A DNA stretch of 64,000 nucleotides from Luteimonas sp. FCS-9 (GTDB lineage: Bacteria; Pseudomonadota; Gammaproteobacteria; Xanthomonadales; Xanthomonadaceae): positions 1 to 64,000 of the forward strand of contig NZ_LASZ01000005.1 of NCBI RefSeq assembly GCF_001014645.1, written 5' to 3'. Shown here in pieces: positions 5,305 through 23,148 of the stretch. Both the position numbers and the translations under genes were made by a program. Position 1 is the stretch's first letter; every line of letters begins with the position of its first letter. Under the pieces are notes generated by a model that searched no databases, was not told where the DNA came from, and saw only the letters and a program-made list of their open reading frames with translations.

Positions 5305-7256
5305 CCGCGCGTTCTGGCCACCCGCTGGACGTCGCCGGCCGGCGGCGCGTGCTGCTGGCCGCAGCAGTCTGCCTGCTGCCGCTGCTGCTGCAGCTCCCGC
5401 CGACAGTGGCGATCGTCGTCGCGGCGGTCGGCGCCCTGGTCGTTTCGGTCTCCGGCCGCCGCATGCTGCCGGGCTGGCTGCGCGGCGGCGCCGCGCTCGC
5501 GCTGCTGGCCTGGGTACTCGCGCAGGCGGGCGGCGCGATCGGGCGCGACACCGGCTGCGCGCTGCTCGCCGCGATGCTGGCGGTCAAGCCGTCCGAACTG
5601 CGCACGCTGCGCGACGCCCGCAGCCTGCTCGGCTTCGCGCTGTTCGCACCGTTCGCCACGTTCCTGCTCGACCAGGGTCCGCTGTCGCTGGCACTGGGCC
5701 TGGCCGGCGCGCTGCTGGTCGTGGTCGCGCTGCTCGGGCTGTCGGACGCCGAATCCGGGCTCGCGCCGGGCGGCGCCCGCCGGCAGCTGGGCACCGCGCT
5801 GCGCCTGGTCGCACTCGGCCTGCCGCTCGCGCTGGCGGTGTTCTGGCTGTTCCCGCGCCTGTCCACGCCGCTGTGGGGCGTGCCCGAGCGCTCGTCGGCC
5901 ACGCCGGGGCTGTCGGACGAAATGGGCGCCGGCCAATGGCTCGACCTGCTGGCTGACGATTCGCCGGCGTTGCGCGCGACGTTCGCCGGCCCCGAACCCG
6001 CGGTCTCGCAGATGTACTGGCGCGGTCCGACGCTCACCGACTACGACGGCCGCACCTGGACGATGGCCCGCCGGCAGCCGCCGCCCGCGCCCGACCTGGT
6101 CGCCCATGCCGCACCGGCCTGGGACTACGAAGTCGTGATCGAGCCGACCGGGCGCGACCTGCTGGTCGCGCTGGACCTGCCCACCGCGCTGCCAGACGGC
6201 GTGCGCGGCGGCCGCGACTACACGCTGCGCAGCCCGCGCCGCCTCGACAGCGTGAGCCGCTGGCGCCTGCGCTCGGCGCCACCGCTGCGGTTCGAAACCG
6301 ACCTGCCCGACACCTTCCGCGCCGATGCCCTGCGCGTGCCCGCCGCGCTGAACCCGCGCACCCGCGCGCTCGCGCGGCAATGGCGCGCGGAAACCCCGGA
6401 CGACGCGGCGCTGGTCGCGCGCGCGCTGGCGTGGATCGAGCGCGATTTCGCCTACACCCTCGACACCCCGCTGCCCGGCCGCCACGCGGTCGACGAGTTC
6501 CTGTTCGACCGCCAAGCTGGCTTCTGCGAGCACTTCAGCTCGGCATTCACCGTGCTGATGCGCGAGGCCGGCATTCCCGCGCGCGTGGTCACCGGCTACG
6601 TTGGTGGCCGCCGCAACGCCTACGGCGACTACTGGCTGGTGCGGCGCATGGACGCCCACGCCTGGAGCGAGGTCTGGCTCGAAGGCCGCGGCTGGGTACG
6701 CGTCGACCCGACCGCCGCGGTCGCACCCGAACGCATCTACGACACGCTCGAGGACCGTCTCGCGGCCGGGCGGCCCGGCGGTGCACGCTTCGCGCCGATC
6801 TTCGACCTCGGCGACTGGGCGCGCCGCGGCTGGAACGACTTCGTGCTCGGCTTCGACGCCAACCGCCAGCAGGCGATGCTCGAGCGACTGGGCCTGGCGC
6901 GGCTGGGCGCCGCCGGCCTGGTCGCGCTGCTCGCCGTCGCCGCGCTGCTGGCGCTGGGTGGCATGCTGTGGCTGATCGCGCGCAGCGATCGCGAGACCGA
7001 CCCGCTGCTGCGCGCCTGGCACCGGCTGGGGCGGCGCTACGCACGCCTCGGCCTCGCGCGCCTGCCACACGAACCCGCGTCGGCCTGGATCGTGCGCATC
7101 GGGCCCGCGACGGGCGATTCGGCGGCGCTGGCCGCCCTCACCCGCCGTTTCGTCGCCGCGCGCTACGCTCCGGACCCGGCCGACCCCACCCTGGCGCGCG
7201 ACCTGCGCGCGCATCGCCCCACCGCCGCCCGCGCCGCGAAGGAGACCTCCCGATGA
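5301..7256 (+). CDS. tgpA: TgpA-type transglutaminase (DUF3488 + transglutaminase-like)
   Basis: A 651-aa protein with five or six N-terminal transmembrane helices (about 13-190, DUF3488), a periplasmic transglutaminase core and one more helix near 535-560. The cysteine-protease-like triad is intact: Cys409 in AGFCEHFSS, His453 in DAHAWSEVW and Asp469 in RVDPTAA. The family includes Pseudomonas TgpA, an essential periplasmic enzyme thought to act on the envelope. It starts with GTG overlapping the DUF58 stop (GTGA) and ends overlapping the slp ATG (ATGA), completing a tightly coupled moxR-DUF58-tgpA-slp operon. Confidence 0.9.
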   Translation: MTARSGHPLDVAGRRRVLLAAAVCLLPLLLQLPPTVAIVVAAVGALVVSVSGRRMLPGWLRGGAALALLAWVLAQAGGAIGRDTGCALLAAMLAVKPSELRTLRDARSLLGFALFAPFATFLLDQGPLSLALGLAGALLVVVALLGLSDAESGLAPGGARRQLGTALRLVALGLPLALAVFWLFPRLSTPLWGVPERSSATPGLSDEMGAGQWLDLLADDSPALRATFAGPEPAVSQMYWRGPTLTDYDGRTWTMARRQPPPAPDLVAHAAPAWDYEVVIEPTGRDLLVALDLPTALPDGVRGGRDYTLRSPRRLDSVSRWRLRSAPPLRFETDLPDTFRADALRVPAALNPRTRALARQWRAETPDDAALVARALAWIERDFAYTLDTPLPGRHAVDEFLFDRQAGFCEHFSSAFTVLMREAGIPARVVTGYVGGRRNAYGDYWLVRRMDAHAWSEVWLEGRGWVRVDPTAAVAPERIYDTLEDRLAAGRPGGARFAPIFDLGDWARRGWNDFVLGFDANRQQAMLERLGLARLGAAGLVALLAVAALLALGGMLWLIARSDRETDPLLRAWHRLGRRYARLGLARLPHEPASAWIVRIGPATGDSAALAALTRRFVAARYAPDPADPTLARDLRAHRPTAARAAKETSR

Positions 7257-11236: not shown

Positions 11237-11329
11237 GGAGAGGTGTCCGAGTGGTTGAAGGAGCACGCCTGGAAAGTGTGTAAGCGTCTAAACCGCGCTT
11301 CGGGGGTTCGAATCCCCCTCTCTCCGCCA
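11237..11329 (+). tRNA. tRNA-Ser(GGA)
   Basis: 93 nt including an encoded CCA. The acceptor arm is GGAGAGG paired with TCTCTCC (one G-T pair), the anticodon stem is CACGC/GTGTG with loop CTGGAAA (anticodon GGA), there is the long variable arm of class II tRNAs, and the T-loop is GGTTCGAATCC. It marks the junction between the dnaX operon and the A/T-richer accessory region that follows. Confidence 0.96.
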
Positions 11330-11366: not shown

Positions 11367-11942
11367 CTGGGGGTGTGCGGGGACTTGATGAAGGCCCCCG
11401 GCTCGACGGATTCGCCTGGAGCGAATCCGGCCAGCCCAGAGGGCTGGCCCCGCAGGCGCCCGCGCCGGAGGGGCGAGGCCCATGGATGGGCCGAGCAATC
11501 CCCCTCGTCGCAAGTTATGCAGATGACCGAGGCTTCGGCCAAGCAGTTCCGGAACTATCCTACTAAAAGACTGACCTCCTCCCAGTAACTGGTGGTACGG
11601 CTACTGGGGGCAAGTCAGCCAACCTCGGCCTCTCGCAGGAGAGCCGATGATCTGCTCTTCGTTGAAACGCTTCTTCACGTCCAATCTCCTTCTCGTTCGG
11701 AATTGGACTCCAAAGCAGACTGCTACTCAATTGCGGGGGGGGGGCCGTCGAGGCGGGCTGGATCGTTGGTGAGCATAACGAAGAATGGCCGATTTTGCCG
11801 GAAGCGGCCGACGTGTCCGGCCAGCCGCAGCCTCACCATTGGTTACAAAGATTGCTCTCGAATGCGCAAGCGCAGTTCAAGTTCATCTTGTTGCAAGAGA
11901 GCGCCTCCTTGGAAGGCCAGAACCCACGTGCTCAGAGGACAA
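11367..11942. other. Gene-free stretch with three perfect inverted repeats
   Basis: No convincing protein-coding gene. Three short perfect palindromes lie in a row: 11408-11428 (ggattcgc / gcgaatcc, 5-nt loop), 11429-11449 (ggccagccc / gggctggcc, 3-nt loop) and 11477-11492 (ggcccat / atgggcc). From about 11500 the sequence turns A/T-richer and contains an IS3-type transposase remnant at 11621-11678. Open frames crossing this interval overlap the tRNA or the remnant and show no family motif. Confidence 0.6.
11621..11678 (-). mobile_element. IS3-family transposase OrfA remnant (frameshifted)
   Basis: On the minus strand the sequence from 11678 reads V-K-K-R-F-N-E-E-Q-I-I-G. After skipping one extra base in the next codon it reads F-L-R-E-A-E-V. 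This is the N-terminus of an IS3-type OrfA (KKRFxEEQIIGFLREAEAG). A ggagattg ribosome-site-like sequence precedes it. The frame is broken by a one-base insertion and homology stops after about 19 codons, so only a 5' scrap survives. No inverted terminal repeats were found. Confidence 0.7.
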
Positions 11943-13883
11943 TCAGGCGCCGCGAATGCCAATAGCCCGCGCGTCGGCACGTGCCTGCGCGTATCGCCCA
12001 ACCGCATCGCGCATCGCGCCCTCAAGCGCTTGACGCTGAGCGGTGGCTACCTGTCGCATCTGCTGCAAATCTGCCCTGCCGGCCTGAAGTTCCTTGAGAA
12101 TTTCAGCCCGGCGAACCGCAATGCTGCGGTCAAGGTCGGCAACAAGCCTTGGATCAACGCCGCCGCTCGCATTGAACCGAAATTTCCCCTCTAGCCCGCG
12201 CCGCCACTTCAATAGCCGCTCCGTAAGCGCCGGTCCAAATCCAGGCACATTCATGACGGCGCGCTTGTCGACATCAGCCGCCGTCTCGATGCCGAAAGAC
12301 TCAAGCATTGCCTTCTTCGCGGCGCCGATCCCAGGGATCGAGGCTCGTTCAATCTCGAACTGATCCAAGTAGACGCGCAGCGCGTGCGTCTGGCGATCCT
12401 GGACAAGCCGGCTGTAGCGCGCATCGCGCTTTTGCTGCAGTTGGCCCAGCTCAGTTTTCAGCGCGTCCAAGCCTTGACGCTTGGCGCGGAACTGGGCATC
12501 CGCACGATCTTCGCGCCATCGCACGCAAAGACCCTCGAAATGATCCTTTGCCTGGCGAAATCGACTCTCGATCGGTGCTATGTCGCTGCGTCCACGGCTG
12601 TTGATCCAAACACCGAGACCTGCGCCCAAAAGTCCCCACAGAAGGATCAGATCAACGCTGACCAGCACGCCGAGCAGAATAACGCTGAGCGCGACCGCCC
12701 ATGCCACCGTCTGCCATACGCCTTTGCGTTGCCCCAAGGCCGCGATCGCAGGAGAGGCTAGGACCGCCGGCACCTGTGGCGGCGCGGGCCAAGCAGGGAG
12801 CGCGATTGACAGGATGTCGCGCCAGATCGCGTCAGCATTCGTGGGGCCGCTTTGCACTGGCGGCGCCGATCCAAGGGGCATTCCAAAGAGCGCAATGCCG
12901 GCCCGCTCGATTGGGCACCATGGGCACGCGCTGAGCGCGCCGTAGTAGTAATGCGCGGGGTGGGCGGAGCACCGAGCGAACTTTCTCTCGACCACCTCAA
13001 GCGCTTTGATCCACTCCTGCGCGGACGGACGCGCGCCCGGAGCCGTGCCCGCTTGCCCAAACGCACGCTCCCAAAGCTGCGCCACCGGCGCAGACGCCGC
13101 CGATGCTGGCGCGCTAAATGGAGGCGGCTGCATGCGCAGCGCAGCGCCGTTTGCGGTATACGCGTATCGAAATTCCGGGATCGCCCTCTCGATCGGCATG
13201 TCCCCTGGGCCGCTGTAGCGCCCTGCAAATGGGTGGCGGCCGTTGAGCAACATTTGAAAAATCAGGACCGCTAGACCGAAGTTGTCATGATTAACAGTAC
13301 GCGTGATCGATGCGAAGGCCTTCCCGTGGAGCTCTGGAGGGGTGAAGTCCTGGACACCGACTTCGCAGCGAAACACGCGCCCCTGATGCGACACCTGAAA
13401 GCTGTCGGTGTCGATCAGTCGCACAGTCGCATCTGATGCGACGCGAACGCCGCCATGATTGACGTCTCCAACGAGGTGCCCGGCCTGATGAAGCGCCGCA
13501 AAGGCACGCGCCGTGTTGAGCGCGGCACGCACCACCATGCGCCAGTCGGCATTTGGGAAATCCGCGAGGCGACTCTTGGGGCTGTAGAGCCTGTGGATGT
13601 CCTTGGAGCCGCGCAGGTTCTCCATCAAAAACCCGCGCACCTTCCCGTCTGGCTGGCGGAGCACATCGATGGGCCACGCAGTGAGCTGACTGATCACAGA
13701 TGTGCGCAGGCTCGGCATTACTGCGAGCTTTGCGCTCCGCTCCTCGTTCGCAGGCGCGAGGTAGATCTTGGCTGCGAGCTCGGGCCGCCCACTCACTTCG
13801 TAGACTGAGCCCTCGCCACCCTTCCCGAGGAGCGTGCCGAGGACCACCCGGCCCGCGCTGCCGCGGACGTCGGGCGCGCTCAC
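11943..13883 (-). CDS. Ser/Thr-kinase-like protein with zinc-ribbon, TM and HhH domains (TerY-P triad kinase)
   Basis: A 646-aa protein. The kinase domain (about 12-300) has glycine loop GKGGEGSVY, ATP lysine Lys39 in LAAKIYL, catalytic-loop Asp140 in VGDVNHGG and Asp158 in IDTDSF. The usual metal-binding Asn at Asp+5 is Gly145, so activity may be altered. A Cys305 / Cys320-x2-Cys323 cluster resembles a zinc ribbon. Two transmembrane helices lie at about 390-427, a coiled coil at 440-510 and two helix-hairpin-helix motifs (PGIGAAKKA, PGFGPALTE) at 516-560. This architecture matches E. coli YegI. It is the last gene of a VWA-PP2C-kinase operon, with GTG directly abutting the phosphatase stop. 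Confidence 0.88.
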   Translation of the reverse strand: MSAPDVRGSAGRVVLGTLLGKGGEGSVYEVSGRPELAAKIYLAPANEERSAKLAVMPSLRTSVISQLTAWPIDVLRQPDGKVRGFLMENLRGSKDIHRLYSPKSRLADFPNADWRMVVRAALNTARAFAALHQAGHLVGDVNHGGVRVASDATVRLIDTDSFQVSHQGRVFRCEVGVQDFTPPELHGKAFASITRTVNHDNFGLAVLIFQMLLNGRHPFAGRYSGPGDMPIERAIPEFRYAYTANGAALRMQPPPFSAPASAASAPVAQLWERAFGQAGTAPGARPSAQEWIKALEVVERKFARCSAHPAHYYYGALSACPWCPIERAGIALFGMPLGSAPPVQSGPTNADAIWRDILSIALPAWPAPPQVPAVLASPAIAALGQRKGVWQTVAWAVALSVILLGVLVSVDLILLWGLLGAGLGVWINSRGRSDIAPIESRFRQAKDHFEGLCVRWREDRADAQFRAKRQGLDALKTELGQLQQKRDARYSRLVQDRQTHALRVYLDQFEIERASIPGIGAAKKAMLESFGIETAADVDKRAVMNVPGFGPALTERLLKWRRGLEGKFRFNASGGVDPRLVADLDRSIAVRRAEILKELQAGRADLQQMRQVATAQRQALEGAMRDAVGRYAQARADARAIGIRGA

Positions 13884-14693
13884 TCAGGGCGCCTCGGCAG
13901 ACAGTGCAATCGGCTGATACGGCGGCAAGCGGCTTGCCAAGATGAGCGTCTTGTCGTCATCGGTCCGCTCGCATACGACAGGCGACGACAGATATTCATT
14001 GAGCTTCTCAGACAACTCTTGGTCAATGCCGCCCATCGGCAAGGCCCGCACAGCCTGAAACATCTGGTCGAAGAACGGGCCGTGAACCGTCTGGGATGCA
14101 TAGTGCAACACAAGCGCCTCGATACCGTCGGTAAATGCGGCAACTTCATCGATTGGGCCGACTTGCGATGAAAATTCGACGTTGTCAATCGCGGCCGGGT
14201 CGGTTACGAACACCGTCTGATTGATGAACTCGCCATGCTGTGGCCAGAAGATGTAGGCCCAATCATCTCCACGCGGACGCACGACCATCGCGCCATCGCC
14301 AATCTGCAAAAAGCATGCATGATCCGGGGATACGATCGCCGCAAGCAGCGTGCAGGCGTACTCGCGAACCGCCATCCCATCCTGCTCCGCGCGATGGCTG
14401 ATCCTGGCCACGACATTGCGAATCCATGCCTGTGCGGTTTCGCGCGTGAGCGCACGTAGCTCATTGCCATCGTTAAAAAAACCGCGCACCGAGTCGAGAA
14501 GCTCTGCGGTTGCAAGCTGCGCGCCGCTGTCAGACCGAGAAGCGCTACCGGCGCCATCCGCGGCCACCAGCACCAAGACAGGGTCCTCACCTAAGAGCGC
14601 CCAGGCATGCGCGTCCTGACAGGGCGCACCTGTCTTCGAGTGCGAAGCTCCGAGCGCAGATGCGGCTGCCAGCCGCCACGCCTGGAGATCCAT
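13884..14693 (-). CDS. PP2C-family phosphatase (TerY-P triad, PphC-like)
   Basis: A 269-aa PP2C-type metal-dependent Ser/Thr phosphatase. Visible signatures are GASHSKTGAPCQDAHAW near the N-terminus, the metal-site [15 protein letters not shown], the QIGDGAMVV strand and AAFTDGIEALVL, and a C-terminal DDDKTLILA. This is the arrangement of the PP2C_2 group, which includes E. coli PphC (YegK). It presumably reverses phosphorylation by the adjacent kinase. The start at 14693 forms TAATG with the VWA stop; an ATG at 14708 would add five residues. Cytoplasmic. Confidence 0.9.
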   Translation of the reverse strand: MDLQAWRLAAASALGASHSKTGAPCQDAHAWALLGEDPVLVLVAADGAGSASRSDSGAQLATAELLDSVRGFFNDGNELRALTRETAQAWIRNVVARISHRAEQDGMAVREYACTLLAAIVSPDHACFLQIGDGAMVVRPRGDDWAYIFWPQHGEFINQTVFVTDPAAIDNVEFSSQVGPIDEVAAFTDGIEALVLHYASQTVHGPFFDQMFQAVRALPMGGIDQELSEKLNEYLSSPVVCERTDDDKTLILASRLPPYQPIALSAEAP

Positions 14694-15370
14694 TAAACCG
14701 TCGCCCATCCTTCGGGAACGGCCGGATTCTGCAATGGAACAGCGTCGCCAGGCGTGGAGCGCGAGACGGCGCTCATGGAGTTGGATAGCCAGCTAAAGAG
14801 CTCGCGGAACTGCAGTCCCCGCAGGCTCAGCGGCGCGCGCACGGAAATCTGACGCAGCGTCCCCATGTCTGCGCCCTGCACGCCCACGGCGAAGAACTGA
14901 AAATTCTTAGTGGCCTCGCCCTCACGCACGAGCTCGGCTGCGCGCTTCCAGTTATCGGTCGGCGCGCCGTCGGTAATCAGAAAGATCCACGGGCGGTAGT
15001 AAGACACGCCGTTGGCCTTGTAGATCTCTTTGCGCTGGCGAAGCATCTCGAGCCCCTGCTCGATCGCAGCGCCCATCGGCGTATCTCCAGTGCACGCAAG
15101 CGTTGGCGGATAGAAGCTGTCGGCGGTTACGAACTCCGTCATCGTCTGTACGGGGCCGAAAGTTACGATCCCTACCTCAACGCGCTTGGCGGCAAGAGAA
15201 TCGGCGGTAAGCTCTTCGCGAAACTGCATCAGCCCTTCGTTGAGCTGCTGAATTGCCGGGCCGTTCATCGACATCGAGGTGTCGAGGAGCAAGAGGCACG
15301 CGCACCGGTTTTCCGGGTTCTCCGCGAAGGTGTGTGAACCAAAGGGCATCTGCTCAAATTCGCTTGTCAT
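14693..15370 (-). CDS. VWA-domain protein, TerY/YegL-like (TerY-P triad)
   Basis: A 225-aa von Willebrand A domain protein. The metal-ion-dependent adhesion site is intact: Asp30-x-Ser32-x-Ser34 (DTSMSM), the downstream Thr in TGDTPMGAA and Asp in ITDGAPTD. TerY/YegL proteins are believed to organise partner proteins through this metal site. It is the first gene of the triad. The start at 15370 has AGGGAGA upstream with proper spacing; an upstream in-frame codon at 15418 lacks one. A TAGAAT box on the minus strand (15396-15401) could serve as -10. The TAA stop overlaps the phosphatase ATG. Confidence 0.9.
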
Positions 15371-15446
15371 ATCGGATCTCCCTGTCCTGTGCAGAATTCT
15401 AGTCGAAAACCTTGGCACCTGAGCGAGGCGGGCTTAGCATCCGAGC

Positions 15447-16085
15447 ATGCTGAACGCGCTTCCCACCGCCACCGCTTCTTGGACGCCCCGCGGCGCCGCC
15501 GATTGGGCGCCACTCGTCGCGTCGGGCGCGGTGCTTACAGGGTTTTTGCTCACTCTTGCGCTTGGTGATCGATCATATCCTGAGCAACCCTCCTCCGCGC
15601 CGATCTCGCAGGAAGTCGCCGTGGCTCCGGCCGAGGTGCCCGCGCTTCGAGCAGTGCCCCCGAGCGTGCGAAGTGGCAACCGGGGCTCCATCCGGCTTGT
15701 CGGAACGAATGCCCTTCCTTCGCCAAAAGGCCCGTTAGCGTCCGCAAGCGGCTGCCCCCGCTCACAACCCCATCTGCCCTCGCCTGCCGCAGCTGCAGCC
15801 CTAAAAGCGGGCTGGCACGTGAGCGCTGACCTGCATCGAGCCGGTTACCAGCTCGTCCTTGTGGACGCAGGTGTTGAGCGCAAAGGCGAACGGTGCGTGC
15901 CGATTGGTGCGTCTGTGCTTGTATTTATCGAGTCAGGGCTTGTCGCGATCGCCTACGACAGAAGCGGCAGATCTGCTTCGCGCTTGGCAGCGATCGAGCT
16001 TGCAGAGCCTCATGGCGTAAACCTGATGGGCGGCGCGGGCACGCTCGCGCATCTGGCACTAGGCGATCAGCTGATCCTTCGCTAG
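15447..16085 (+). CDS. Hypothetical protein with one N-terminal TM helix
   Basis: A 212-aa protein that I do not recognise. A hydrophobic segment at about 24-40 (LVASGAVLTGFLLTLAL) is followed by a Pro/Ser/Ala-rich linker (45-120) and a compact C-terminal part with alternating hydrophobics (AGWHVSADLHRAGYQLVLV, VLVFIESGLVAIAY). That would fit an inner-membrane anchor with a small periplasmic or cytoplasmic domain. It diverges from the VWA gene and converges on the exonuclease gene, 14 bp short of it. The ribosome site is weak, so the gene is plausible but unproven. Confidence 0.5.
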   Translation: MLNALPTATASWTPRGAADWAPLVASGAVLTGFLLTLALGDRSYPEQPSSAPISQEVAVAPAEVPALRAVPPSVRSGNRGSIRLVGTNALPSPKGPLASASGCPRSQPHLPSPAAAAALKAGWHVSADLHRAGYQLVLVDAGVERKGERCVPIGASVLVFIESGLVAIAYDRSGRSASRLAAIELAEPHGVNLMGGAGTLAHLALGDQLILR

Positions 16086-16099
16086 GGGCTCCGCTGGGC

Positions 16100-16966
16100 T
16101 CAGCAAATCGCTTGGGTTTCCACGATCTGCTTGAAGTCGGACTCGCGCAGTACACGGATTGCGTATCCCTTCGCAATAAGCGCTTCCGCTTTCAAATGTT
16201 TGGCGCTCTTGGTCTTCCCAGCGAGCTTACGCGCGTCCTGATCTCCAACGATCAAAAGCGTCGTCTTTTTGCTGACGCTAGCAGCGACGTCGCAGCCTGC
16301 CTTCGCCGCCAGATCAGCGGCATGACGCCGCGGGATCTCCAACGACCCTGTGAACACCGCGATCTGCCCAAAGAGCGGCCCCTCACAGTCCCCGAGGCGC
16401 GTTACGTGCCCCTCAGTGCTCAGATCGATCGGACGCCGCACGCGCCCCTGCCAGTCGGCGAGCGTCAGCCCTGGCGCCCCGCTCGCGCGGCAGAGCACCT
16501 CCCCGGCTGCGCGCGCGTCTTCGAGCGCATCGTGGTGCTCGAAGCGAATACCAAGAAACGCGGACACCGGACGCAGGCCATATCCACGCGCGCCAAAGCG
16601 ATCCGGCCATGCCCGCCGGACAACGCGTGCGGTGTCGAGCCACTGCCAGACGGGCACGCTCAGGCCATAGCGTTCACAAGCACGGCGAACCGCTCCCTGA
16701 TCGAACGGGGTATGACAGGCAACGACACTCGCGTCCAGGCGCTGCCTGAGTGCTTCGGCAATCTGCGGCCATGTGGGCGCGCCGCGGACATCTGCTTCGG
16801 TGATCCCATGGATGTCGACGTTGAAGGCATCGAATTCACCCTCCGGATCGACGAGCGCCGAATACGAATCGACATGTCGCCCGTCTCGAAAAAACGCAAC
16901 GCCAACCTGGCAAATGCTGCCAAGATCAGCGTTGGCCGTTTCAACATCAAGGGCTGCAAATTCCAT
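16100..16966 (-). CDS. DEDDh exonuclease with C-terminal BRCT domain
   Basis: A 288-aa protein. The N-terminal DnaQ-type 3'-5' exonuclease has Asp7 and Glu9 (ALDVETAN), the HGITEADV segment, AxHTPFDQGAV (Exo II Asp) and HHDALEDAR (Exo III His and Asp). From about 200 a BRCT domain follows: GQIAVFTGSLEIPRR, AKAGCDVAASVSKKTTLLIVGDQ, then a KxxKAEALIAKGYAIRVL tail as in the DNA-ligase BRCT. BRCT would recruit it to DNA ends or phosphoproteins. The chromosomal DnaQ at 37.6 kb is distinct. It lies in the accessory region beside a phosphorylation triad, so a role in defence or repair is an inference. Confidence 0.87.
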   Translation of the reverse strand: MEFAALDVETANADLGSICQVGVAFFRDGRHVDSYSALVDPEGEFDAFNVDIHGITEADVRGAPTWPQIAEALRQRLDASVVACHTPFDQGAVRRACERYGLSVPVWQWLDTARVVRRAWPDRFGARGYGLRPVSAFLGIRFEHHDALEDARAAGEVLCRASGAPGLTLADWQGRVRRPIDLSTEGHVTRLGDCEGPLFGQIAVFTGSLEIPRRHAADLAAKAGCDVAASVSKKTTLLIVGDQDARKLAGKTKSAKHLKAEALIAKGYAIRVLRESDFKQIVETQAIC

Positions 16967-17066
16967 TTTGCTCCGATGGACATATCACGCGATCACGCCC
17001 TGATGAGCTGGCAACGCGGCATGGTCGTTAGGCGACACCGCATCCTGCGCTTACGCTTTAGGCGGA

Positions 17067-17198
17067 CTACTTGTTTGGCTTGTGCTTGTGCGGCTTGAGC
17101 GAAGGCGTATTTCCAGGCGTTTCCTTGTTATCTCGCCTCCTCTTATCAGGCTCGCCTGTCGATGGAGCGATTGGCTTTGGACCCGGTTTGATTGCCAT
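17067..17198 (-). CDS. 43-aa basic Pro/Lys-rich protein
   Basis: A small ORF beginning MAIKPGPKPIAPSTGEPD and ending KPHKHKPNK, with a perfect AGGAGG at 17205-17210 placed 6 nt before the ATG, the best ribosome site in this region. It contains 10 Lys/Arg and 9 Pro in 43 residues and no hydrophobic segment, so it should be soluble and possibly disordered or nucleic-acid binding. No family recognised. It lies between the exonuclease gene and the DUF4236 gene, in the same orientation as both, with 100-180 bp gaps. Confidence 0.6.
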   Translation of the reverse strand: MAIKPGPKPIAPSTGEPDKRRRDNKETPGNTPSLKPHKHKPNK

Positions 17199-17375
17199 GA
17201 AGAGCCTCCTTTTCGATTGGTGAAGAGCAATTCCTCGCGGTGCCGCCTAACGCAATTTTCGTAAGTGCCGTTCGAGCCCGGCAATTCGACTCCCGATCCT
17301 GCCACGGACCCCAAGGCGACGACTCCAAGTTGCCTTTTATCGCCGATGTCGGCATTTTGCAACTCAAACTACCAC

Positions 17376-18473
17376 CTAGGATTTCACAACTCGAGAGAGG
17401 GCCTGCAGCTGCGTCGCGAATGCGACAGCGGCGCCCCCCTTGGAGACGTGCAGCAGCTCGTCGATCCCTGTCGCACTGGTGATTCCGAGGCGATCGTAGG
17501 CGCAGATCGGAATCTGATGATTATTCTTAAATCGCTTGTCCGGCCCGCCGCGCTTGTTTACGAACCGCCAGGTGTAGCCCGTAATCGTCGCGTCAGAAGG
17601 CACGCCCTCATCCTCAATAAAGCTTGTAGGGCCCGCTTCAAGGCGCAGGGTTCCGAATGACGCGCCACCCACACCAGAGCTGTCGTAGATCAAGACGCGA
17701 TCTGGAAAGAAGTGGAGCGTCTGAGCACCGACCTCCACTGCAATCGTTTCTACATTCGTCTTCACGAAAGGCGGTGCAGCGCGAGAGACGCGCGTTTTCC
17801 TACGTTTTACAAGGCCACTGGCACCCGCATGATACTTCGCATTATGCACATGTGCGCGCGCCGAAATGTGCCACACGCGAGACGCTCCCGCAATTCCATC
17901 GGCTGCCCTGTGGAATGCTTCGAGTGCCTGCTCAATATCCTTGTCGAGCTCGTAAAGGAGCACGACAGATTTGCGCAGGAGATCGGCGTAGTAAGCCCAT
18001 GCAACGCCGATCCCACCGACAAGGAGGGCGACCCAAATTGCCCAGACCGGAGCGCCTCGCATAAACAGGATCAGCAAGGCGGTGAGTAGCGCCGTGAGAG
18101 CCCATGGCCAAAAGCGGACACGCCGCTGCTTGTCGCTCAGTTCATCCAGCAGTTCCGCCGATGACGAATCAACGATTGTTGTTGCGAGCGCCGAATCGAT
18201 GTCGACCATAGGACCATGCGTGCCTGAGGGCACATCGCTCCAATCGAGCGAAGCGGGCGGCGGCATGGGCACCCTAGGCGTGCTTTGTGAACCCGAAATC
18301 GCTGGAAGCGTCGCGCGGTAATGGATACCGCCCCGCCCCATGTGGACGTAGTTGCCTCTTGGGCCGGTCCCAACGCGAAGACCCTTGACGCCGACAGACA
18401 CACCGACTCCACCCTTGGAGAGGTTGAATCTGAACGGCCCCACCCACACGCTTTTACGCAGATAGATTCCCAT
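17376..18473 (-). CDS. DUF4236 domain-containing membrane protein
   Basis: A 365-aa protein. Residues about 3-55 are a DUF4236 domain (YLRKSVWVGPFRFNLSKGG, GVSVGVKGLRVGTGPRGNY), a short module of unknown function common in accessory regions. Two transmembrane helices follow at about 122-165 (WPWALTALLTALLILF, VWAIWVALLVGGIGVAWAYY). A long soluble C-terminus contains FVKTNVETIAVEVGAQTLHFFPDRVLI. The start at ATG 18473 has AAAAGGAAC upstream; a TTG at 18476 is in frame. It appears to be the leftmost-transcribed gene of this minus-strand accessory block. Confidence 0.8.
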   Translation of the reverse strand: MGIYLRKSVWVGPFRFNLSKGGVGVSVGVKGLRVGTGPRGNYVHMGRGGIHYRATLPAISGSQSTPRVPMPPPASLDWSDVPSGTHGPMVDIDSALATTIVDSSSAELLDELSDKQRRVRFWPWALTALLTALLILFMRGAPVWAIWVALLVGGIGVAWAYYADLLRKSVVLLYELDKDIEQALEAFHRAADGIAGASRVWHISARAHVHNAKYHAGASGLVKRRKTRVSRAAPPFVKTNVETIAVEVGAQTLHFFPDRVLIYDSSGVGGASFGTLRLEAGPTSFIEDEGVPSDATITGYTWRFVNKRGGPDKRFKNNHQIPICAYDRLGITSATGIDELLHVSKGGAAVAFATQLQALSRVVKS

Positions 18474-18867
18474 CAATCAAGTTCCTTTTGACCCTCGATA
18501 CGCTCACACGTACCCACCAGCAACTCCCGGGGCAAACGCTTTGCAACGCAGCGGCGCCCCAACTCTGGACCTTCGCGCCGATGGTGACAGATGTTTTCGT
18601 AGCTAGCCCTAGTATTCAAGCCGCACGCCTCGTAGCGAAGCCTTGGAGAATGCCGGGAACTACCGACGCCCCCCGCAATTGAGCAGCAAGGAGCTCTGGA
18701 GTCCAATCCCGAAGAGCTTGCCCAGCTTCCCCACTTCCGTCCCCCCGGCTCAAGAAGAGGAATTTCGGCTCACGGAACTTCTTCGGAGGCGCTCAGTACT
18801 ACTTGACAACCGCACAATTCGCTAGCAAGCTCGACTACGGAGCGTAGAAACTCCTCAGACAGCGGTA
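18474..18867. other. Gene-free spacer
   Basis: About 390 bp between the divergent DUF4236 gene and the structured leader. Short open frames exist on both strands but none has a family motif or a convincing ribosome site. The sequence is A/T-richer than the flanking chromosome and probably includes the promoters of both divergent units, which I cannot place with confidence. Confidence 0.5.
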
Positions 18868-20656: not shown

Positions 20657-22489
20657 GTGGCAAGACACCTGATCGTGGTCGGCGATCCGACCAGTGGCGG
20701 CGGCGTGGTCGTCAGCGGTTCGCCGTTCACCGACATCGAAGGCAAGCCGGTCTCGCGCATCAACGACCACGCCACGTGCCCCAAACACAAGGGCACCTTC
20801 CCCATCGTGACCGGCGACCTGACGCTCGTCATCGATGGCCAGCCCGTCGCGCGCGATGGTGATCGGCTGGCTTGCGGTTGCAGCGTGCTGTCCAACAAGC
20901 AGTATCGCGTGTTCATCGATTCGGGCGGCAATGTCGGCCGTGCGGCAGCCGGGGTCGGCGGCCTGTTCGCCGCCTCCCCCGCGCCAGCGCCCTTGGAGAC
21001 ACCACTGCAGGCCTCGTCCGCACCGGCGGAGGAACCGACCACGGCGGTGACATTGCGCATCGGCGTGTTTTTCGACGGCACCAACAACAACGCGTCCAAC
21101 ATTGCGCTCGGCGCGCAGTGCCGGGCCTCATCGGCCGACGCGCTCGGCCAGGACGCCGAGGACCGCGCCGCGATCGCCGAGCACTGCCGCCCTTACATGC
21201 TGAAGCCGGGCAGCAGCTACGACAATGGCATTACCAACGTGGCGCGGCTGTACGAACTGTATGAGGACAGTTCGAGCGAGTCATGGAGCGAAAGCGACAC
21301 CAGCTACTGTATTCCGATCTACGTGGACGGTATCGGCACACTCGCCGGAGAAGCGGACGACTTGCTGTCCCAGGGGCTGGGAACCGGACGGAGCGGCGTG
21401 TTGGCGCGGGTCTCGGAGACGATGTCTCGAAGTATTCCAGAGCAACTGGCAGCCTTCGTCGCGAACGCATCCGGCGCAGAGGTGGAGGCGATCGAGTTTG
21501 ATGTCTTTGGTTTCTCGCGGGGCGCGGCCGCAGCACGACATTTCGTGCATGAGGTCAATCGCAAGGGGCATGGCCCCTTGGCAGGTGCGCTACTGGGCAG
21601 CGGCGTGCGCTACACACCTGACTTCGAGTTCGTCGAAAGCGTAAGTGTGGAGTTCGTCGGGCTATTCGATTCAGTCTCGGCGATCGGCAGCCTGGCCGAT
21701 GGTTTGAACGTGCGCGACGGCCGGACGGGAGGCGTCCAGATGGCCTTGCCGGCAGGATGCGCGCGCCAAGTCGTCCATCTCGTGGCCCGAGACGAGCGGC
21801 GAGCCAACTTCATGCTGACCAGTGCGGACCCGCCCCATGGGGATATTGTGCTGCCTGGCGTGCATTCCGATATCGGTGGCGGCTATCACCGCGACCGCGA
21901 GGGGCCGTTGCTGCTGACAAAGCCTGTCGGCTTCGACGAGCCTGCCGAAGGGCTTGCGCCCGGGCAAGCGCCAGATCGCGGCCAACTCGAGCGCAGTCGG
22001 GCGTTTCGCCGAGCGGCAACGGAGTGCGCGCGTTGGCGCGAGCAACTCGACGCCGACGCAGAGACGGTGCGGGTGGAGGTGTGGCACCAATGGCAGTCGC
22101 GGCGTCGCGCAGGCAGCCACAGCGTGCAGCCCGATCGAGCGCTGCGAATCTATGCCGCAGTCAGCCTGGAGCGCGCAGTGGATTGGCGCTACCAGCTGAT
22201 TCCGCTGAGATTGATGCATCGGAAGGCGAGCGAAGGTGGCGTACCTTGGAGGCAATCGCCAGACGATGTGCCCGATATGAGCCTGACGGACGAGCTCCTT
22301 CCCTTGGCTGACAAGCTGATCAACGGCCAAGCTTTGATCAAACAAGAAGAAGCCCTATTGAGAAGGAAGTACCTACATCAGTCGTCCCACTGGAATTATG
22401 CACTTGGGCGCAATCCCGTGTCGCTTGAACTGGTGTACGCCAGTCGTCCCGATCCAAGCGGTCAACGAAACATTCTGCCGAATCGATGA
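20657..22489 (+). CDS. PAAR-domain Tle1-type phospholipase (T6SS effector)
   Basis: A 610-aa fusion. Residues 1-90 are a PAAR-like tip domain (GDPTSGGGVVVSGSPFTDIE, HATCPKHKGTF, LACGCSV), which would mount the effector on the VgrG spike. From about 132 comes a DUF2235 / Tle1 alpha/beta hydrolase: FFDGTNNN, nucleophile Ser287 in GFSRG, Asp338 in GLFDSVS and His403 in GVHSDIGGGY form the triad. Tle1 enzymes cleave membrane phospholipids of neighbouring bacteria. It uses a GTG start with GAGGAGG upstream. The immunity gene overlaps its stop. No other T6SS gene is in the window, so it is an orphan effector module. Confidence 0.92.
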   Translation: MARHLIVVGDPTSGGGVVVSGSPFTDIEGKPVSRINDHATCPKHKGTFPIVTGDLTLVIDGQPVARDGDRLACGCSVLSNKQYRVFIDSGGNVGRAAAGVGGLFAASPAPAPLETPLQASSAPAEEPTTAVTLRIGVFFDGTNNNASNIALGAQCRASSADALGQDAEDRAAIAEHCRPYMLKPGSSYDNGITNVARLYELYEDSSSESWSESDTSYCIPIYVDGIGTLAGEADDLLSQGLGTGRSGVLARVSETMSRSIPEQLAAFVANASGAEVEAIEFDVFGFSRGAAAARHFVHEVNRKGHGPLAGALLGSGVRYTPDFEFVESVSVEFVGLFDSVSAIGSLADGLNVRDGRTGGVQMALPAGCARQVVHLVARDERRANFMLTSADPPHGDIVLPGVHSDIGGGYHRDREGPLLLTKPVGFDEPAEGLAPGQAPDRGQLERSRAFRRAATECARWREQLDADAETVRVEVWHQWQSRRRAGSHSVQPDRALRIYAAVSLERAVDWRYQLIPLRLMHRKASEGGVPWRQSPDDVPDMSLTDELLPLADKLINGQALIKQEEALLRRKYLHQSSHWNYALGRNPVSLELVYASRPDPSGQRNILPNR

Positions 22490-23148
22490 GACAGGCTATG
22501 AAGCGAATTGGAATTGGTGCGCTACTCGCGCTGTTGTTGGCTGCCTGCGCCTCGGGGGCCGCGAATGCGCGACTGCCTTACGAGGCATGGCGGCTTGGAT
22601 TTCTCGCACCGCACTACATGGAAGTATGGACCGAGGATGCAGCGATCGAAGATGTCCGCGGCCGTGTGTTCTCGGGCTATCGAAGCGGCACCGTGGCCGT
22701 GGCGCATTCCGGCGACGCTGCCGGTTGGCCCGTCACCCAGAGCATGGGTAAGGGGCGGTATGTCGTCGGCGCCGACTTGCCGCGGCGCATCCATGTCCGC
22801 TGGCAGTCGCTGGTGGAGCCGCAGACCTATCGGATCACATTGGACATCCCCGACGAGATGCGTGCGTTGATGCTGGAGAAAGCCAATTCGATCGCGGTGC
22901 CAGGAAGGCAGGAATATCGCAATGCTGTCGTCGTCGGGCTGGCACCTGGCGGCTGGGTCAAGGTCTGGGTGAAGAGCCCTGGAAGCGAGCGGATCGAAGC
23001 GCTTTGCCAGAAAGCTGAAGTTGAACCCAAAGGACCGGACCAGGGCGCACACGGAGGTCGTTACGTCACCCTGCCACCGAAAGTAAAAGCCTACATCGAC
23101 CAAAATCCCGTGCCCTACGATTCCTGGAAATGCCCAGAGAACGCGTAA
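22486..23148 (+). CDS. DUF2931 lipoprotein, probable Tle1 immunity protein
   Basis: A 220-aa lipoprotein with lipobox LLAAC (Cys at about 21). The mature sequence WRLGFLAPHYMEVWTEDAA, VRGRVFSGYRSG and IHVRWQSLVEPQTYRITLDIP fits DUF2931, a family repeatedly found next to Tle1 lipases as periplasmic immunity proteins. The start ATG overlaps the effector stop (ATGA); a second ATG at 22498 (MKRIGIGALLALLLAACA) gives a more typical signal peptide. It would neutralise the toxin delivered into the periplasm by sister cells. Confidence 0.82.
   Translation: MRQAMKRIGIGALLALLLAACASGAANARLPYEAWRLGFLAPHYMEVWTEDAAIEDVRGRVFSGYRSGTVAVAHSGDAAGWPVTQSMGKGRYVVGADLPRRIHVRWQSLVEPQTYRITLDIPDEMRALMLEKANSIAVPGRQEYRNAVVVGLAPGGWVKVWVKSPGSERIEALCQKAEVEPKGPDQGAHGGRYVTLPPKVKAYIDQNPVPYDSWKCPENA

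Follow-up and report, generated by a model that had tools for sequence, protein, structure and literature searches.

Downstream of a tRNA-Ser gene in Luteimonas sp. FCS-9, three adjoining genes encode a VWA protein, a PP2C phosphatase and a Ser/Thr kinase, which raises the question of whether this triad is a mobile defence module and, if so, whether it belongs with TerY-P, reportedly described as antiphage by Gao et al. in 2020. The stretch analysed here (the window) comprises positions 1 to 64,000 of contig NZ_LASZ01000005.1, from a 3.95 Mb genome in 55 contigs that belongs to the same family as Xanthomonas. We find that the triad is of the known YegL-PphC-YegI kind, and that what is new is its five-gene, island-borne form, in which it is accompanied by two membrane proteins, ORF212 and a DUF4236-domain protein. 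The explanation that we favour, and to which we give an even chance, is a mobile YegL-PphC-YegI module that together with these two proteins follows tRNA-Ser and has the net effect of protecting the cell against phage or foreign DNA.

The triad corresponds to yegL-pphC-yegI of E. coli

All three genes lie on the minus strand. The VWA gene (14693-15370) encodes a YegL-type protein with a metal ion-dependent adhesion site (MIDAS), as assigned from the gene call, alignment to YegL and a Pfam match to PF00092 (E=2.7e-10). It is followed by the gene for a PphC-type PP2C phosphatase (13884-14693; gene call and PF13672, E=4.1e-51) and by that for a YegI-type kinase (11943-13883; gene call and YegI alignment), in which a kinase domain is joined to a zinc ribbon, a membrane hairpin and a helix-hairpin-helix (HhH) tail. 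The likely ATG of the PP2C gene overlaps the VWA stop codon by 1 nt (a further ATG upstream, at 14708, is an alternative start), and the kinase gene starts with a GTG that abuts the PP2C stop. These gene calls agree with a reading made earlier from the letters alone (hereafter the sequence-only reading), which had described three genes that abut or overlap by 1 nt, their products being a VWA protein with a MIDAS, a phosphatase of the PP2C type and a kinase that has zinc-ribbon, transmembrane (TM) and HhH parts.

The same reading equated the trio with yegL-pphC-yegI, and alignment to the E. coli K-12 proteins at near full length bears this out, with 63% identity to YegL over 220 columns, 41% to PphC over 253 columns and 35% to YegI over 636 columns (E=2e-112). 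For the kinase this comparison is decisive: the Pfam matches to its kinase domain (E=3e-4) and its HhH part (E=0.08) fall below the curated cut-offs, and both identities are settled by the near-full-length alignment to YegI, which has the same architecture through the HhH tail. Sequence searches of the PDB returned no relative of the VWA protein, the PP2C or the kinase at E<=0.01. The E. coli K-12 locus differs in having yegJ between pphC and yegI and in having no DUF4236 or ORF212 gene annotated in the 20 kb read.

Characteristic residues are conserved. Among seven aligned sequences, the VWA protein keeps the DxSxS motif of the MIDAS (D30, S32 and S34), with T97 and D134 also invariant, and the kinase keeps its glycine loop, K39, the GDVN catalytic loop (D140) and D158. 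The zinc ribbon (C305, H311, C320 and C323) is likewise invariant in all seven kinases, each of which also has the hydrophobic hairpin (residues 388-428 in the window protein), and much of the sequence of the HhH tail (about 511-560) is invariant as well. Measured against the copy in G014, a genome of the same genus, dN/dS is 0.03, 0.13 and 0.08 for the three triad genes, which are under purifying selection in this comparison; against the closer copy in G042, also of the genus, the kinase gives 0.19 and the purifying signal is less clear.

The triad lies in a transferred block at a variable tRNA-Ser slot

The slot is anchored by a tRNA-Ser (GGA) gene on the plus strand (11237-11329), and the triad belongs to a transferred block of lower G+C (11892-18664) that is collinear in the window, G042 and G014. 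The block matches G042 at 94.6% over 11892-17372 and at 93.1% over 17369-18664, and G014 at 83% and 77% over 11938-18490. Among 52 sampled genomes of the genus, the full-length kinase is found in three (the window, G042 at 96% and G014 at 88%), with kinase-domain-only matches in two more, and the dnaX-side flank is present in 51 of the 52; G035, which is 73% complete, contributes only the tRNA part. G031 and G045 have a near-empty slot (<1 kb), whereas in G036 and G007 it is filled with other contents. Along the window, G+C changes from 70-72% left of the block (8-11 kb) to 57-64% across it and 71% at 19-20 kb; it is 59-68% at 20-25 kb, a region also missing from the compared genomes, and 71-73% beyond 25 kb.

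In both G042 and G014 the block has at its far end an 18-nt copy of the tRNA-Ser 3' end, with 2 and 0 mismatches, respectively (expectation in shuffled sequence, 0.01 and 0.00), which is the signature of tRNA-targeted integration. G014 carries a second such copy, inverted, nearby, and the sibling G007, from which the block is absent, still carries one. In the first 30 kb of the window no far copy was detected at up to 4 mismatches except the tRNA itself, and over the entire window the sole other match (1 mismatch) is a second tRNA-Ser at 32 kb; the right boundary of the block in the window is only putative. No integrase is evident by eye among the genes listed at the window slot. In G014 an integrase-type gene adjoins the tRNA (DUF6538 above cut-off, Phage_integrase just below), and the copy in Xanthomonas G213 adjoins what by eye is an integrase/recombinase-like gene and a different tRNA-Ser (TGA). 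Because the triad is patchy in the genus and its flank conserved, and because there are empty slots, low G+C and tRNA-Ser 3' copies, we conclude from these comparisons that it is placed horizontally downstream of tRNA-Ser, as the sequence-only reading had proposed.

That reading went further and took the triad for a defence module in this strain. The PADLOC scan of slot contents covered G036 and G014 and gave defence matches in both. The slot of G036 holds a 1,886-aa DUF4011 helicase that matches both PDC-S37 (1,755 bits; PDC-S37 is a candidate system) and Hhe, and in G014 the Wadjet genes JetC and JetD share with the triad a 47-kb stretch from tRNA-Ser to repeat. The slot of G007 contains a protein that shares size and start with the G036 helicase, as seen in the gene listing and not in a PADLOC scan. 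The slots of these two further genomes, with their known or candidate defence genes, support that part of the proposal which concerns a horizontal module in a defence setting; they do not support the triad itself as a defence system.

Two membrane proteins travel with the triad

The sequence-only reading had the triad right and overlooked two accompanying genes. ORF212 (15447-16085, plus strand) diverges from the VWA gene across a 76-bp region (15371-15446; 74-76 bp in the six family copies compared, namely those of the window, G042 and G014 and of Xanthomonas G213, G258 and G338), in which 14 nt directly before the VWA start, including the likely ribosome-binding site, are invariant in the six copies. 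Its product consists of an N-terminal TM segment, a linker and a C-terminal part that is probably beta-rich according to a low-confidence model. The DUF4236-domain membrane protein, which is triad-linked in several lineages, is encoded at 17376-18473 on the minus strand, as in the other copies of the genus; in Xanthomonas its gene is convergent with that of the kinase. Both proteins have hydrophobic TM segments, and both accompany the triad in all six family copies. Against G014, dN/dS is 0.23 for ORF212 and 0.09 for DUF4236, and the two genes are under purifying selection in this comparison; against the closer G042 the values are 0.51 and 0.18, and the signal for ORF212 is less clear.

The genes co-occur across the family. 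Among 297 family genomes, a full-length YegI-type kinase is found in five, strong matches to ORF212 (E<=1e-40) are in exactly those five, and strong matches to DUF4236 (E<=1e-120) are in eight, including all five kinase genomes (hypergeometric p of 5e-11 and 3e-9, uncorrected for kinship within two genera). At looser cut-offs, DUF4236 is found in 10 of the 297 (E<=1e-5), two of these being weak or partial (G098 and G311), and ORF212 in nine (E<=1e-3), four of them weak (E of 1e-5 or worse). The kinase query at E<=1e-10 matches 21 family genomes, 16 of which are kinase-domain-only matches of other triads.

The association extends beyond the family. A search with the VWA alignment found at least 529 loci, and the best 80, from many phyla, were taken as the related-loci set; the kinase alone as query returned no loci. 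Of these 80, 79 have a PP2C and 75 a kinase match (in a frame of >=480 aa in 70), and 74 show the order VWA-PP2C-kinase on one strand, some of the others reaching contig ends. DUF4236 adjoins the triad in five of the 80 loci, X. arboricola included, the DUF4236-domain proteins in question otherwise coming from three Mesorhizobium loci and a metagenome-assembled genome of Bryobacteraceae. These non-family proteins have the N-terminal domain in common, and in Mesorhizobium L148 an SH3 domain replaces the long C-terminal part. When 49 whole triad genomes chosen from the 80 loci were searched for PF14020, nine had it, adjoining the triad in five. On a kinase tree of 70 rows, from which six rows of Saccharibacillus and any locus lacking a kinase frame of >=480 aa were excluded (among the latter Mesorhizobium L125, with a frame of only 161 aa), the DUF4236-triad association requires three changes, and none of 500 shuffles was as low. 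These changes may represent one gain and two losses, the position of L152 being weakly supported. E. coli YegI falls in a separate clade from the window kinase on this tree.

DUF4236 is not confined to triads. Three genomes of the family that show no match to a triad kinase also encode the long protein, and in two of them, G180 and G093, it adjoins a ~1,430-aa SF1 helicase (L198 10728-14999; L200 5392-9714) that resembles PADLOC MkoA, MkoC and PDC-S37 in parts; in G093 a Dsr1-like SIR2 protein and a protein with an FRG domain are close by as well. For G307, the third genome, the listing of open reading frames (ORFs) shows no evident neighbour of a comparable kind. DUF4236 is almost unmentioned in the papers searched, one of which uses the term. 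Structure predictions from two-row alignments reached a mean pLDDT of 48 for ORF212 and 35 for DUF4236, too poor for a fold search, and PDB matches of DUF4236 to tryptophan synthase (E>=0.036) and of ORF212 to methyl parathion hydrolase (E=0.19) were treated as chance.

Relation to TerY-P and other known systems

Antiphage TerY-P has the VWA-PP2C-kinase triad in common with the window. According to PMC10889362, other TerY-P systems give P. aeruginosa protection from phage, one variant having been found by manual search, and excerpts of a commentary on Gao et al. mention activity against T7-like phages (PMC7699616). The antiphage variant described in the relevant section of PMC11090510 differs in that its kinase has a C-terminal OB-fold; none is recognised in the window kinase, which has the zinc ribbon, TM and HhH parts instead. 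The same section describes TerY-P triads of Type II/III-A CoCoNuT systems, in which, as in the window, VWA and PP2C proteins accompany a kinase fused to a zinc ribbon. In contrast to those systems, no McrBC or helicase gene is present among the scanned ORFs of the window block, where the HhH tail and DUF4236/ORF212 are found instead. For the E. coli proteins, work cited in PMC13232886 reports autophosphorylation of YegI and its dephosphorylation by PphC; the same paper states that no inducing condition has been defined for them, and the portions consulted of PMC13232886, PMC9674922 and PMC11140677 give YegI no phage role.

A genome from elsewhere in the class links the two kinds of kinase. The PADLOC TerY model (PDLC02224), with which E. 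coli YegL reaches only E=0.032, has no match in 21 relatives or 14 controls. Across 369 class-wide genomes this model matches one, G668, and the YegI-type kinase profile matches eight at E<=1e-80, three of them over the first ~60% only. G668 has two PADLOC-recognised TerY-P triads, and in one of these (L212, contig C21, 6084-9923) the kinase combines an STK_OB-type N-terminal part with a YegI-like HhH tail that is homologous to that of the window kinase (hhalign probability 90%, E=1.5e-6). The VWA and PP2C proteins of this hybrid triad are only remotely related to those of the window (hhalign probability 44% over 44 columns; BLASTP E=0.18). From these alignments, YegI-type and PADLOC TerY-P triads look like sister designs with an exchangeable tail in common, and the window triad is best described as TerY-P by architecture and not by the available models.

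Many other VWA-PP2C-kinase triads were seen in the family (L071-L088; in the genus itself, L006-L008 and L015-L017), and by eye their kinases mostly have a zinc ribbon and a TM segment with no recognisable HhH tail.

Evidence for and against a defence role

Several observations weigh against defence as the function of the triad. The window VWA and PP2C proteins match no PADLOC family at E<=0.01, and none of the PADLOC TerY-P models (TerY PDLC02224, PP2C PDLC02222 and STK_OB PDLC02223) matches the window triad, the kinase giving weak matches (18 bits) to two PD-T4-6 models only. At E<=1e-3 the YegI-type profile does not match the second TerY-P triad of G668. Of 5426 complete E. coli genomes, 5364 carry yegL, at 5370 places of which all but one are chromosomal, and since this gene (the sole one of the trio queried) is near-universal there, a YegL-type triad is not in itself a defence marker. 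Most immediate neighbours are not of a recognised defence type: among 101 nearest-neighbour proteins chosen by hand (67 of the 80 loci being represented, with proteins >600 aa excluded; 99 from a list of 224 and two added separately), no PADLOC family occurs in more than two (25 of 123 families listed, without a background set), and the commonest domains are TetR regulators (9/101) and then SH3_3 (6/101). Nor is a nuclease or any obvious killer effector conserved alongside the triad. Filing the triad under the catalogued antiphage TerY-P systems, as the sequence-only reading had done, is rejected because the PADLOC scan of its proteins gave no TerY-P call.

A few neighbours are of defence type, with single matches to a defence-type reverse transcriptase and to PDC-S02 and two to Cas1. 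Homologs of the VWA protein are found on 50 of 72,556 records in the plasmid collection (E<=1e-30) and, at <40% identity, in two of 50,697 phage records (E<=1e-10).

How, then, is the module best explained? A serious rival, though a somewhat unlikely one in our estimate, is an envelope- or cell-wall-stress module in which the membrane kinase and secreted or membrane partners monitor the envelope and the island represents a niche adaptation. It is serious because yegL is chromosomal core in E. coli, because SH3_3, PG_binding_1 and LprI-type proteins occur among the neighbours and because no PADLOC family matches more than two of those neighbours. SH3_3, a domain often of secreted or cell-wall proteins, is found beside the triad in Mesorhizobium (several of the six cases are from related strains) and in Rhizobium phaseoli, PG_binding_1 in R. 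phaseoli and the LprI-type protein in Bordetella; the hydrophobic TM segments of ORF212 and DUF4236 fit the same idea. It accounts less well for family copies that sit on tRNA-Ser islands, in a slot common to known or candidate defence genes, and for an HhH tail that is conserved in seven kinases and for which a pure envelope sensor has no obvious need.

Two further proposals we regard as improbable. One is a Ter-type stress switch for tellurite or metal, that is, metal-dependent signalling unrelated to phage, which would suit the conserved MIDAS and zinc ribbon and draws on the association, in the relevant section of PMC11090510, of TerY-P triads with tellurite resistance and a hypothetical metal-sensing phosphorylation switch; against it, the six Pfam-scanned ORFs of the block (the part of the genome searched) include no recognised Ter gene, and the VWA protein, a member of the YegL subfamily, is not matched by the TerY model of PADLOC. 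The other, to which we attach equally little weight, is that the module maintains or regulates an integrative element, so that selection would act for the benefit of the island rather than the host. What speaks for it is that in two genera the module is linked to tRNA-Ser genes, att-like repeats and genes resembling integrases; yet the module persists in the window with no integrase evident by eye and no far att-like copy to 30 kb, it is under purifying selection, and in E. coli a related yegL belongs to the chromosomal core.

A proposed membrane-bound phosphorylation switch

With these alternatives weighed, we return to the protective module as our preferred explanation: from its sequence and setting, it probably guards the cell against phage or foreign DNA of another kind. 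The genes, their homology and conserved residues, the purifying selection, the co-mobility and the island setting are shown by the comparisons above, while the topology, ligand, substrate, membrane-protein roles and purpose given below are inferred. The kinase would be held in the inner membrane by its TM hairpin, with the kinase/zinc-ribbon part and the HhH tail both cytoplasmic. If the tail binds DNA or some other stress ligand, this may trigger phosphorylation, including autophosphorylation, and the VWA protein could serve as a metal-dependent adaptor that links kinase and substrates via its MIDAS. The kinase would then be the writer and the PP2C the eraser that resets the switch, DUF4236 and ORF212 would provide envelope input or output, and the net effect would be to protect the cell from phage or other invading DNA.

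A more specific version, which we consider rather unlikely as a whole, is that the unit is a hitherto undescribed five-gene inner-membrane immune or stress system in which the HhH kinase senses foreign DNA at the membrane and signals to the DUF4236/ORF212 pair, with DUF4236 being reusable with triads or SF1 helicases and HhH tails being swapped between YegI-type and antiphage TerY-P kinases.

Other genes in and near the block

Between ORF212 and the DUF4236 gene lies a gene for a DEDDh exonuclease with a BRCT domain (16100-16966, minus strand), a passenger confined to the copies in the three genomes of the genus. As a nuclease effector or core part of the module it was rejected, since the Xanthomonas copies lack it and in G042 it is broken, being split in two pieces of 125 and 85 aa (L009 7239-7880). 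The Wadjet-bearing stretch of G014 also encodes a 1,455-aa protein (L055 7812-12179) without a Pfam match at E<=0.001 or a PADLOC match at E<=1e-5. Next to the block in the window (20657-23148, plus strand), a PAAR protein with a type VI secretion system (T6SS) Tle1-like phospholipase domain is followed by a DUF2931 protein, and the two are probably an effector-immunity pair.

Significance

The locus provides a mobile relative of YegI and PphC, in a slot shared with defence genes and together with two conserved membrane proteins, and offers a concrete genetic handle. DUF4236 is now tied both to kinase-phosphatase triads and to helicases that resemble defence proteins, and one triad of G668 bridges the YegI-type and antiphage TerY-P kinases.

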